Assembly (NCBI RefSeq): GCF_011758745.1
Contig: NZ_JAANOV010000001.1
Location: 2,852,001-2,916,000 of the forward strand
Direction: 5' to 3'
Length of the DNA stretch: 64,000 nucleotides
Source of the DNA: Amycolatopsis granulosa
GTDB lineage: Bacteria; Actinomycetota; Actinomycetes; Mycobacteriales; Pseudonocardiaceae
Shown: piece by piece, positions 51,168-55,223 of the stretch
Layout: every line of letters begins with the position of its first letter
Numbering within the stretch: position 1 is the first letter of the stretch
Program-made: the position numbers and the translations under genes
Notes under the pieces: generated by a model
Told to the model about the DNA's origin: nothing
What the model saw: only the letters and a program-made list of their open reading frames with translations
The model's database searches: none

Positions 51168-51889
51168 ACGCGGTCGAGCAGGCGCTGGACTGGCTGGGCC
51201 GGCCGGGCCGGTGGAGCTGGACGGACCCGGCCGGCATCCCGTACCGGACGGTGGAGCACCTCGGGTTCTCGGTGTTGTCGCTGCTCGTCGCGGCGGCCCT
51301 CGCCGTGCCGTCCGCACTGCTGCTGGCGCACTTCCGCCGCGGCGCGTTCCTGGCGAGCAGCGCGGTGAACATCGGCCGGGCGATCCCGAGCTTCGGCCTG
51401 ATCATCCTGTTCTGGTACCTGGCGAGCAGGTGGGGCGTCGGCACGTCGTTCTGGCCCTTGCTGCTGGCACTGGTGGCGCTCGCGCTGCCGCCGTTGTTCA
51501 GCAACACCTACGCGGGCGTGGTGTCGCTCGAGCCGGACGCGGTGGACGCGGCGCGTGGCATCGGCCACACCGAGCGGCAGATCATGCTGCGGATCGAGCT
51601 GCCCCTGGCGCTGCCGGTGGTCCTGGCCGGTGCGCGGGTGGCGTTCCTGCAGCTCGTGGCGACCGTCGCGATCGGCGCGATCGTCAACGACGGCGGGGGC
51701 CTGGGCCGCTTCATCGTGGACGGGTTCGCGCAGGGCGCGGGCGGCTACGGCGAGATCCTCGCCGGGGGCCTCGCGGTCATCGTGCTGGCCCTCGCGTGCG
51801 AGGGCGTGTTCGCCCTGCTGGAGCGGTTCGCGGTGCCGCGGGGCCTCATCCTCTCCCGACGCACGACACTGACGACCCGCCCCGCCTAG
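51164..51889 (+). CDS. Osmoprotectant ABC transporter permease 2
   Basis: This 241-residue permease is of the same family as its neighbour, with about five helices (VLSLLVAAALAVPSALLLA, LLLALVALALPPLFS and others). The coupling loop EPDAVDAARGIGHTERQIML lies near residue 130. The pair would form a heterodimeric channel for the substrate-binding lipoprotein encoded divergently. It ends tail to tail with the YbaK-family gene, overlapping by four bases. An ATPase must be supplied from elsewhere in the genome. Confidence 0.88.
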   Translation: MNAVEQALDWLGRPGRWSWTDPAGIPYRTVEHLGFSVLSLLVAAALAVPSALLLAHFRRGAFLASSAVNIGRAIPSFGLIILFWYLASRWGVGTSFWPLLLALVALALPPLFSNTYAGVVSLEPDAVDAARGIGHTERQIMLRIELPLALPVVLAGARVAFLQLVATVAIGAIVNDGGGLGRFIVDGFAQGAGGYGEILAGGLAVIVLALACEGVFALLERFAVPRGLILSRRTTLTTRPA

Positions 51890-52437
51890 CTCACCGGCTT
51901 CGCCAGTCCCTCAATCACCTCGGCCCCGGGCAGCGAGGCCAGCAGCTCCCCGGTGACCAGCAGCTTCCCGCCGCGCGTACCGCTGCCGATGACGAGTTCG
52001 GGCGAGTCCGCGACGGCCTTGTCGACGAGGATCGGCCAGTCCGCGGGCAACCCGACCGGCGTGATGCCCCCGTAGGCCATCCCGGTGAGTTCGACCGCCT
52101 CGTCCGTCGGCGCGAAGGACGCCTTGCGGACGTCGAGACGCCGTTTGATGACGCCGTTGACGTCGGCGCGGGTCGTGGCGAGCACCAGCGCGGCGGCGAA
52201 GCGCACCTCCCCGGCCCGCTTGCCGGAGACGACGACGCAGTTCGCGGAGGCCGACAGCGGCGAGGAGTAGGCGTCGCAGAACGCGGCGGTGTCGGCCAGG
52301 CCGGGATCGATCTCGACGACACCGGCCTGGGTGTCGTCGAGAGTGGCGAGCGCCTTGGCGACGGGCTCGGCCAGCAGGTCGGTGCGTTCGGTGGCCGGGT
52401 GGACGGTCAGCGTCCCGGCGATGCTCCAGGTCCTCAC
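51886..52437 (-). CDS. YbaK/aminoacyl-tRNA deacylase family protein
   Basis: This 183-residue protein has the YbaK/EbsC core: CDAYSSPLSASANCVVVSG near residue 54, RRLDVRKASFAPTDEAVELTGMAYGGITP-like near 98-128 and the closing IGSGTRGGKLLVTGELL. The lysine in the DVRKASFA stretch is typical of editing domains that clear mischarged Cys-tRNAPro or related species. The exact tRNA is uncertain. The start is a GTG at 52437. Confidence 0.87.
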   Translation of the reverse strand: MRTWSIAGTLTVHPATERTDLLAEPVAKALATLDDTQAGVVEIDPGLADTAAFCDAYSSPLSASANCVVVSGKRAGEVRFAAALVLATTRADVNGVIKRRLDVRKASFAPTDEAVELTGMAYGGITPVGLPADWPILVDKAVADSPELVIGSGTRGGKLLVTGELLASLPGAEVIEGLAKPVS

Positions 52438-52474
52438 GACCGCCAGGATAGGCGGTGCCGGTCCCGGAGGCGGT

Positions 52475-52771
52475 TCACCAGTTCTTGCCGCCGCGCTGGA
52501 CCTCGATGAGCCGCGGCCGCACGTCCACGAGGTAGACCAGCACGGCCACGAGCCCGGCCAGCCAGAAGAAACTCCCGGCGCCGACGAACTGGAACAACCC
52601 CATGGCGATGGTGCCCGCACCCGTGATGGCCAGCCAGATGGGCTTGGTCTTGCGGTCCGCGGCCTGGTAGGCGTCCGCGCGCTGGACGAGTGCGTGGATG
52701 AACGCACCCACGCCAACCGCTGTGCCGGCCCAGCTGATGACCTGCAAGATCCAGAACGCGATGAACGGCAC
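52475..52771 (-). CDS. DUF2516 family membrane protein
   Basis: This 98-residue protein has three hydrophobic helices (IAFWILQVISWAGTAVGVGAFI, IWLAITGAGTIAMGLFQFVG and FFWLAGLVAVLVYLVDV) and ends PRLIEVQRGGKNW. The family is actinobacterial and of unknown function. It follows the hbhA homologue in mycobacteria (Rv0476, as recalled) and here too it is the next gene on the same strand. The GTG start is at 52771. Confidence 0.88.
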   Translation of the reverse strand: MPFIAFWILQVISWAGTAVGVGAFIHALVQRADAYQAADRKTKPIWLAITGAGTIAMGLFQFVGAGSFFWLAGLVAVLVYLVDVRPRLIEVQRGGKNW

Positions 52772-52922
52772 CTTCCCAGCCTACGTCCCTTCGCCCCCAT
52801 CGTCCGATTCGGTCATCCCCAGAATGCCACGAACGCGAGTACGGCGTCACCGCCGCCGATTTCCGTGGCCCGGCCATGCCGTCGGCGAGACCGCCACGCA
52901 CCGGTGACCCGGCCCCACGGCA

Positions 52923-52959
52923 GGAAAACGGCCCGGTCGCCAGGACCGGGCCGTTTTCC
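52923..52959 (-). terminator. Strong terminator after the hbhA-like gene
   Basis: GGAAAACGGCCCGGTC (52923-52938) pairs perfectly with GACCGGGCCGTTTTCC (52944-52959): a 16-base stem with a 5-base loop. An A/T run near the base supplies a T tract on either strand. It lies 20 bases after the hbhA-like stop. It is the best-formed intrinsic terminator in the window. Confidence 0.9.
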
Positions 52960-52979
52960 GAACCGTGTTCGCGAACCGC

Positions 52980-53597
52980 TTACTTGGTGGTCTTCGGCGT
53001 GGTCGCGTTCGCCGGGCGCTTCGCCGGCGTCGTGCTCCGGCGGGCGGCCGGGGCCTTCGTCGGCGCGGTCTTGGGAGCCGCCTTCGGCTGCTCGTCGACC
53101 TCGTCCTCGATGGTGCCGGCGACCTCGTCCGCGGCCTCGGCGACCTTCTCACCACCGGCGCGGGTGCGCTTCGCGACCAGGCCGAGCACGTCCTCGACCT
53201 TCTCGCGCGCGTCGGTGCTCACCTCGCCGACGCGCTCCTGCGCGGCGGTCAGTGCCTCCTCGACCTGCTCGAGCACACTCTTCACCCGCGGCTCGGCGCG
53301 GAACTTGTCCCACGCCTGCTCACCGGTCTCGGCCAGCTTGTTGTACAGGTTCAGCGCGGCCAGGGTGTACTCGTCGATGACCTTGCGCAGCTCGGCCGGG
53401 TCGAGCTTCTCGCGCAGGGTGGTCACCTCGCTGGGCAGCTCCTCGAAGTTCTTCCGCGCGGCCTCGCTGCCCTCGGCGACGCGCTCCCGGGCCTTGCCCA
53501 CGGCGTCGACGACGGCCTGGCCGGCCAGGTTGCCGGCACCCAGGGCGGCGAGCAGCGGGGTCCGGAGCTGGTCGATGGCGGTCTTGGTGTTGGGCAT
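52980..53597 (-). CDS. hbhA: HbhA-like heparin-binding hemagglutinin homologue
   Basis: This 205-residue protein begins TAIDQLRTPLLAALGAGNLA, as HbhA does, continues as a long amphipathic coiled coil (LREKLDPAELRKVIDEY, KSVLEQVEEALTAAQERVGE) and ends in an Ala/Pro/Thr/Lys-rich tail. In mycobacteria the tail binds heparan sulfate and the protein also affects lipid bodies and potassium handling. Here the tail has fewer lysines and more Thr and Pro. CAAGGA lies 9 bases before the ATG at 53597; a GTG at 53606 is too close to that site. The gene immediately follows the XRE regulator gene. Confidence 0.85.
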   Translation of the reverse strand: MPNTKTAIDQLRTPLLAALGAGNLAGQAVVDAVGKARERVAEGSEAARKNFEELPSEVTTLREKLDPAELRKVIDEYTLAALNLYNKLAETGEQAWDKFRAEPRVKSVLEQVEEALTAAQERVGEVSTDAREKVEDVLGLVAKRTRAGGEKVAEAADEVAGTIEDEVDEQPKAAPKTAPTKAPAARRSTTPAKRPANATTPKTTK

Positions 53598-53602
53598 TGT
53601 GC

Positions 53603-54034
53603 TCACTCCTTGGCGATGGCGGTTGTCGGTCCTCGATCGCCGCCCGCCGCCGCGTTCTCCCGGCGGAACGACTCGTACACGTCGAGCAGGACCTGCTTCT
53701 GCCGCTCGGTCAGCTCGGTGTCCGCGCGGATCGCGTCGGGCACCGGCCCCCCGGTCGGCAGGTCGAGGATTCCGGCCTGCACGTAGAGCGCCTCCGCGGA
53801 GATCCGCAGTCCCTTGGCGATCTGCTGCAGGATCTCCGCGCTGGGCTTGCGCACCCCGCGCTCGATCTGGCTCAGGTACGGATTGGACACTCCGGCGAGC
53901 TTTGCCAGTTGCCGCAAGGAGATCTTCGCGTTGTTGCGCTGCTGGCGGATGTACTCACCGATCCCGGAGGCGATGTCGGCGACCTTGTCGACCGGTCCGC
54001 CCGCCGAGTTGTCGTGTCCGTTGTCCTCCGGCAT
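53603..54034 (-). CDS. XRE-family transcriptional regulator
   Basis: This 143-residue protein has an HTH near residues 27-82 (IRQQRNNAKISLRQLAKLAG, SNPYLSQIERGVRKPSAEIL, then LRISAEALYVQAG) and a helical C-terminus (ERQKQVLLDVYESFRREN). It matches Rv0474, recalled as the gene directly upstream of hbhA. GAAGGA lies 5 bases before the ATG at 54034. Its stop lies 5 bases before the hbhA-like start, so it probably regulates or is co-expressed with that gene. Confidence 0.9.
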   Translation of the reverse strand: MPEDNGHDNSAGGPVDKVADIASGIGEYIRQQRNNAKISLRQLAKLAGVSNPYLSQIERGVRKPSAEILQQIAKGLRISAEALYVQAGILDLPTGGPVPDAIRADTELTERQKQVLLDVYESFRRENAAAGGDRGPTTAIAKE

Positions 54035-54186
54035 GTCAGTCCTTCTCCTCGCGACGGGATCCACGCTACGCCGAGGTGCTAGCTGTTGCAAGCACACTGC
54101 TTGCAACCATCGAGTGTTAGCTGGGTCACGCCACCACGCACCGCCGGCCGAGGGCGGCAGGTCCCGTTCTTGTCCTCGGTGGACGG

Positions 54187-54822: not shown

Positions 54823-54836
54823 CGCGTCAGTCGGCG

Positions 54837-55223
54837 TCAGTCGAAGAGCTGCTCGAGGAAGCTCCGCTTGCGGTGACCCCGATGCCCGTAGGGACGCGGA
54901 GAGTCGGAGTAGTGACCACCGTGGTACGGCCGTGGCGAGTCGTCGTAACCGTGCCCACGGTAAGGACGGGGGGAGTCGCCGTATCCATGACGACCGTACG
55001 GTCGCGGTGAATCCCGGTACGGCTCGCCGTGCCCCACGCCCTGGTACGGCGGCGGAGCAGCGGCCGGACCGCCGTAGTAGGCGCTCTCCGCACCCACGAT
55101 CTGCTCCAGCTCGCCGTGGTCCAGGAAGATGCCCCGGCAACCGTCGCACTGCTCGATGTGGATGCCGTTCTTGTTGACGGTCCGCATCACGTTCTGGCAT
55201 TTCGGACAAATCACAGGTCTCAC
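54837..55223 (-). CDS. TFIIB-type zinc-ribbon protein with DSPRPY repeats
   Basis: The first 45 residues are a zf-TFIIB ribbon (VICPKCQNVMRTV, IEQCDGCRGIFLDHGELEQI), with four cysteines for one zinc ion. The rest is Tyr/Gly/His/Arg-rich and carries DSPRPY at residues 71, 83, 95 and 107, a strict 12-residue period, before a final helix (RKRSFLEQLFD). GTG codons at 55223 and 55214 are both possible starts. Function is unknown. It directly precedes the zinc-ribbon kinase-like gene. Confidence 0.88.
   Translation of the reverse strand: MRPVICPKCQNVMRTVNKNGIHIEQCDGCRGIFLDHGELEQIVGAESAYYGGPAAAPPPYQGVGHGEPYRDSPRPYGRHGYGDSPRPYRGHGYDDSPRPYHGGHYSDSPRPYGHRGHRKRSFLEQLFD
54876..55013 (-). repeat. 36-base tandem repeats encoding DSPRPY units
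   Basis: Four 36-base units encode 12-residue repeats of the form DSPRPY plus a Gly/His/Arg/Tyr-rich hexamer. DNA similarity is clear (GGACTCGG- or GGGGAGTC-like cores recur every 36 bases). The exact phasing in protein and DNA suggests recent amplification. Confidence 0.75.

Follow-up and report, generated by a model that had tools for sequence, protein, structure and literature searches.

A small zinc-ribbon protein carrying repeated DSPx[P/G]Y motifs (ZF) and the P-loop kinase encoded directly behind it (kin) probably form a two-gene operon with cooperating products, in which the repeat array and the kinase are coupled by contact. From comparison of the sequences, we put the probability of this reading at about 0.65. 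Gene adjacency and motif co-occurrence were used as a test for a dedicated kinase-substrate pair, and at least two DS[P/A] copies were found in all 98 distinct ZF open reading frames (ORFs) adjoining kin but in none of the 105 complete ZF ORFs that lack an adjacent kin. Among the relatives read, the motif was seen only with a kinase-like gene right behind it, so the pair is probably one signalling unit. Both genes lie in the window, by which we mean the whole analysed stretch of 64,000 nucleotides from Amycolatopsis granulosa, where the following features were located.

54837-55223, minus strand: zinc-ribbon repeat protein (ZF), 128 aa, GTG start, alternative GTG at 55214
55095-55211, minus strand: PF13453 zinc ribbon of ZF (Pfam match), residues 5-43
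54996-55013, minus strand: DSPRPY copy 1, residues 71-76
54960-54977, minus strand: DSPRPY copy 2, residues 83-88
54924-54941, minus strand: DSPRPY copy 3, residues 95-100
54888-54905, minus strand: DSPRPY copy 4, residues 107-112
54840-54863, minus strand: SFLEQLFD, C-terminus of ZF, like the ends of many repeat-free ribbon proteins
54824-54843, no strand: exact 10-base tandem duplication spanning the ZF stop codon
54187-54822, minus strand: P-loop kinase (kin), 211 aa, with N-terminal zinc ribbon (C11, C14, C30 and C33), Walker A motif GPSGAGKS and EQD at residues 74-76

Zinc-ribbon protein

As the sequence-only reading had proposed, positions 54837-55223 encode a TFIIB-type zinc ribbon, which matches the Pfam family PF13453 (Zn_ribbon_TFIIB) with an E-value of 5.6e-18 and a score of 64.5 bits (cut-off 22). 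The ribbon contains four cysteines and is predicted to bind zinc. The second GTG, at codon 4 (55214), is an equally likely start because relatives are readable from VICPKCQ. The tail of ZF is rich in Gly, Tyr, His and Arg and positively charged, and it ends in a basic C-terminus (KRSFLEQLFD). No second protein with a DSPRPY-type tail was found in the same genome at E up to 1. Assignment of ZF as a TFIIB/TFB factor was rejected, as the cyclin-like repeats are absent and the ribbon alone passes the Pfam cut-off in a protein of 128 aa.

Small bacterial ribbon proteins of PF13453, including many repeat-free members, share with ZF the ribbon, a flexible Tyr/Pro-rich middle, a basic stretch and an [FW]LxELFD-like end, whereas the repeat-free members that were read have neither DSPxPY nor an adjacent kinase. 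Chain A of PDB entry 8yoz, an 82-aa transcription factor zinc-finger domain-containing protein, aligns over ribbon residues 4-44 (E 4.3e-8) but shows no significant match beyond the ribbon. A search by its code found no paper on this entry.

Operon structure and neighbouring genes

The kin gene starts 14 bases past the ZF stop codon, with both genes on the minus strand. In all 40 fetched neighbourhoods, which were picked from the stronger ZF matches of three families, kin was observed to follow ZF on the same strand, and in 36 of them the end of the ZF frame and the kin match are separated by at most 34 bases. The kin start codon lies immediately behind the ZF stop in some relatives. These short gaps suggest translational coupling. 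At 44 of 149 loci (some genes were fetched twice) the two genes share a reading frame, separated by nothing more than a stop codon and a few triplets, and as this is close to the one third expected by chance it gives no evidence of fusion. We noticed that the ZF-kin distance is 17 in the nearest relative (G018) as against 7 in three other close relatives, which is 10 longer.

The genes that lie downstream of the pair (XRE, helical-protein, DUF2516 and YbaK-like) and the upstream ABC genes are, single weak matches apart, confined to the window's own family. On this ground such neighbours, among them the ABC transporter, the XRE regulator and the helical protein, were dismissed as partners. The downstream block of XRE regulator, helical HBHA-like, DUF2516 and YbaK-like genes (51886-54037) was observed next to the pair in many genomes of this family and in 0 of 15 neighbourhoods from other families.

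Repeat array

Four DSPRPY copies at an exact spacing of 12 residues had been read from the window, and they are indeed present, starting at residues 71, 83, 95 and 107. When the 73-residue tail was shuffled 100,000 times, one DSPRPY appeared in 20 shuffles and two in none. The period is a feature of the protein, with no detectable tandem repeat in the DNA: Tandem Repeats Finder (minimum score 30) found no 36-base array at 54880-55015. The Ser codons of the four copies all differ (TCA, TCC, TCG and TCT), and the Pro and Arg codons are mixed. Among 97 kinase-linked proteins, the codon identity of DSPxPY copies was 0.60 within one gene (213 pairs) compared with 0.57 between genes. The lack of a DNA array, together with codons that are nearly as unlike within genes as between them, suggests that the amino-acid pattern is old and has been held by selection. 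The sequence-only reading had also taken the DNA periodicity as a source of copy-number variation. Copy number does differ between species, from 2 to 7, but the DNA periodicity as its driver is unsupported by the codon identities and the search for tandem arrays.

Motif and ribbon are kept in three families, and every kinase-linked relative that was read has at least two motif copies. In a tally of 144 distinct kinase-linked proteins, which also counts copies deviating at one position, 22 have two copies, 54 have three, 55 have four, 7 have five, 4 have six and 2 have seven. Spacing among 97 relatives ranges from 7 to 25 residues, the commonest being 11 (74 of 208), with 12 in 20 of 208. The strict 12-residue spacing is thus a local feature and not a general one. 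The fourth position of the motif is free in relatives, where it is occupied by R, K, P, A, G, S or H, and a likeness of SPRPY to proline-rich antimicrobial peptides was dropped because of this free variation.

A hexamer scan of the 144 proteins, with five defined positions and at most one deviation allowed, gave 499 copies, of which 459 are full and 40 deviate at one position. The deviations fall on D in 10 copies, on P in 11, on P/G in 14 and on Y in 5, while none falls on S. Of the ten D deviants, nine (for example GSPPPY) seem to belong to the linker that directly follows the ribbon and not to the array. A looser scan permitting Thr, run on the distinct ZF ORFs that were read, found no Thr in place of Ser. 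That Ser is kept more strictly than the other motif positions would be explained more readily by modification than by binding alone. The earlier proposal of a multivalent binding or phosphorylation array is therefore well supported as far as the array is concerned, by its conservation, its co-occurrence with the kinase and its invariant Ser, while phosphorylation of the Ser is a putative function.

Co-occurrence of repeats and kinase

Two counts underlie the comparison of ZF ORFs with and without kin. The first comprises 165 distinct ZF ORFs, 97 with kin (all with at least two DS[P/A]) and 68 without (none). The second comprises 40 loci from the class: one has kin and two DSP copies, 38 lack kin and one was unreadable. 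One of these 38 (L368), truncated at the edge of a contig, was left out of the 105. The motif was found in the tail at 0 of the 38 loci, and one has DSA inside the ribbon. Each of the 105 ZF ORFs without kin has at least 400 bases behind it, where kin would show. The sequence-only reading had named a conserved ribbon without repeats as the case that would speak against it. Such ribbons exist in 105 relatives, but these are exactly the relatives without an adjacent kin, and the case therefore sharpens the reading.

A reverse search from the kin alignment gave 181 loci, and the best 80 all have a repeat tail upstream. At 78 of them the upstream ZF ORF is complete and has 2-7 copies (31 of these 78 ZF sequences were already in the first count); at the other two, Ns cover the ribbon, yet kin is preceded by 3 or 4 DSP copies. 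Of the 120 genomes of the family sample, 60 have kin with an E-value of at most 1e-10, and 58 of the 60 have a ZF match. A further 20 genomes of this sample have ZF without kin; the ribbons read there all lack the motif, and 9 of the 20 hold a second, weaker ribbon match outside those read. In the class sample, kin was found at E below 1e-60 in 31 genomes, with a repeat-bearing ZF adjacent in all 31. The ZF ORF was read in 107 of the 127 matching genomes of this sample; the stretches fetched for G223 and L360 gave no intact ZF, and 18 genomes were left out.

Distribution and independence

Whole-protein ZF matches were found in all 19 genomes of the genus, in 78 of 120 sampled from the family and in 127 of 296 from the class, and many of the weaker ones are repeat-free ribbons. 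Relatives with repeats were found in the window's own family, in a family (f18) that holds Thermobifida fusca and in another (f21) that holds Jiangella, as judged by an identical protein. They retain the ribbon, a Pro-rich linker, the DSPx[P/G]Y copies and an LF[D/G] end. In the phylum sample, in which 10 candidates were scored per genome, a kin match at E 1e-12 was found in 2 of 296 genomes, the window's own and G562. Outside the three main families, we observed a ZF with three copies and a kin 72% identical to that of the window in a record under the name Nocardia miyunensis (L272), where transfer, contamination or a wider range may be the cause.

Linked orthologues share ancestry and the co-occurrence counts are therefore not independent. 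In a ribbon tree of 165 rows and 46 columns with weak resolution, the joint label of repeats and kinase undergoes five changes, at least three of which are forced by supported branches, and repeats and kinase are concordant at every tip. With a tree so poorly resolved, the argument rests on some 3-5 changes. The clearest case comes from genus g17, identified as Crossiella by an identical protein (L220 and L320), where four genomes hold two ZF copies. DSPPPY is retained in the copy that adjoins kin, while the distant copy has neither repeats nor an adjacent kin and is nested among the repeat proteins on a long branch.

Partner kinase

The kin protein exceeds the Pfam cut-offs of AAA_33 (34.0 versus 27 bits) and AAA_18 (33.8 versus 29.4 bits). 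Against NCBIfam it remains far below any cut-off, with a best score of 25 bits versus 204. Its four Cys are invariant in a 39-row alignment. The Walker A motif was found in all 130 distinct long kin proteins and EQD.LW in 126 of them, the remaining four having DQD, and the Asp of this [E/D]QD motif is a candidate catalytic residue. By kin, the nearest named records are from Amycolatopsis species (92% for A. tucumanensis), of the family Pseudonocardiaceae.

In a PDB profile search with kin, 11 sequences reached an E-value of 0.01 or better. Among these, BH3686 (2bdt, E 2e-5) alone has a best stretch that spans the larger part of the kinase portion, and the entry describes it only by this name. 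With BH3686 and the other P-loop kinases of AAA_33/AAA_18 (gluconokinase, shikimate kinase and CPT-like), kin shares the Walker A motif and the general kinase profile but differs in its N-terminal four-Cys ribbon. P-loop kinases of the nearest type, such as gluconokinase, shikimate kinase and CPT, act on small molecules. HPr kinase/phosphorylase and the bacterial tyrosine kinases are precedents for protein phosphorylation by P-loop proteins. An anti-phage system was also considered and rejected: PADLOC gave no match for ZF and short P-loop matches of kin to mad3 (E 6.8e-4) and mad8 (E 0.064). A literature search over titles and the beginnings of abstracts found nothing on ZF, kin or the pair; common family names drew zero in it as well, so its silence is weak evidence.

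Homologues of kin without ZF are rare. Two divergent ones were found in G342 (45% identity, no PF13453 match) and in G562 (from another class, with two partial PF13453 matches elsewhere). These rare homologues point to a possible kin substrate beyond ZF, and the divergent ones show that members of the kinase family can do without ZF. In G073, kin lacks the CxxC ribbon pattern and there is no ZF match. In G054, kin has an apparently shifted end and is preceded only by a C-terminal remnant of ZF, while G223 has lost the ribbon and has a kin frame that stops early. Joint decay of both partners is consistent with the ZF-kin pair. In G118, ZF and kin are both cut by contig ends. We also observed divergent kin homologues with CGSFLP or VGSCWP in place of CGTVVP and no ZF neighbour (L150 and L330).

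Proposed mechanism and alternatives

In the mechanism that we propose, kin would recognise several DSPx[P/G]Y copies at a time as docking sites, and their Ser residues would be its probable phospho-acceptors. The ribbon and the basic, conserved C-terminus of ZF may link the array to another target, either nucleic acid or a core machine. On phosphorylation, the Arg/His/Tyr-rich tail would become less positive, and contact with the target could be switched in this way. With 2-7 invariant serines, the zinc-ribbon protein might act as a graded switch in a pair of writer and tail. The assignment of kin as a protein-serine kinase of the small-molecule P-loop type, phosphorylating the array of its operon partner, is the tentative part of this scheme, and on balance we consider it rather doubtful.

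ZF could instead be an adaptor that presents RNA, a nucleotide or a small molecule to kin, the DSPxPY copies merely binding kin. Such docking without phosphorylation is a serious possibility, though one with less than an even chance, and it overlaps with our main reading, in which docking and modification are both allowed. It would account for the same co-occurrence of repeats and kinase, and it agrees with the resemblance of kin to small-molecule kinases and with the existence of divergent kin homologues without ZF. The invariance of Ser is better explained by modification, while leaving room for a binding role.

Shared descent alone might also have kept the two genes together, with a low-complexity Arg/Tyr/Gly tail that binds RNA or forms condensates and kin as a passive operon neighbour. 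We regard this as improbable. The tail does have a suitable Gly/Tyr/His/Arg-rich composition, other ribbon proteins of the family have different Tyr-rich tails and many of the counted proteins are orthologues. However, the other neighbours do not persist across families, repeats and kinase agree at all tips of the ribbon tree through at least three supported changes, and low complexity alone leaves the invariant D-S-P frame unexplained.

There is little chance that an ordinary Hanks-type Ser/Thr kinase or a tyrosine kinase phosphorylates the array and that kin is unrelated. Ser-Pro and Tyr are plausible acceptors for such enzymes, and Hanks-type kinases are expected in these actinobacteria, but the repeats track kin (98/98 versus 0/105). 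Mycobacterial Hanks-type kinases favour Thr, whereas no scored copy has Thr in place of Ser. A functionless repeat born by slippage would fit the 2-7 copies seen between species, but it is hardly credible given the codons that differ nearly as much within a gene as between genes, the lack of a DNA array in the window and the conservation of the motif in three families.

Both domains are known, and their pairing is kept in Pseudonocardiaceae and in the relatives of Thermobifida and Jiangella. A ribbon family that had been uncharacterised thereby gains a specific partner and a mechanism open to testing. Should kin modify the repeats, the pair would be a compact, dedicated protein-kinase system in industrially used actinomycetes, and kin as a writer on the array would represent actinomycete protein phosphorylation apart from the Hanks-type and BY kinases. 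If docking is all that takes place, the array would still point to the missing substrate of the kinase.

Other ribbon types

A second type of ribbon, in which CPxD replaces the first CxxC, was observed at L189, L333, L334, L344-L351, L353-L355, L357-L359 and L361. Ribbon proteins of this type often have Tyr/Asp/Arg-rich tails (for example YDDRRYDE) before a WLxELFD-like end; they are without kin, and their tails are free of DSP repeats. At five loci of the window's family without kin (L195, L197, L201, L202 and L240), PPPYQPPPG-like units occupy the place of the DSP repeats.
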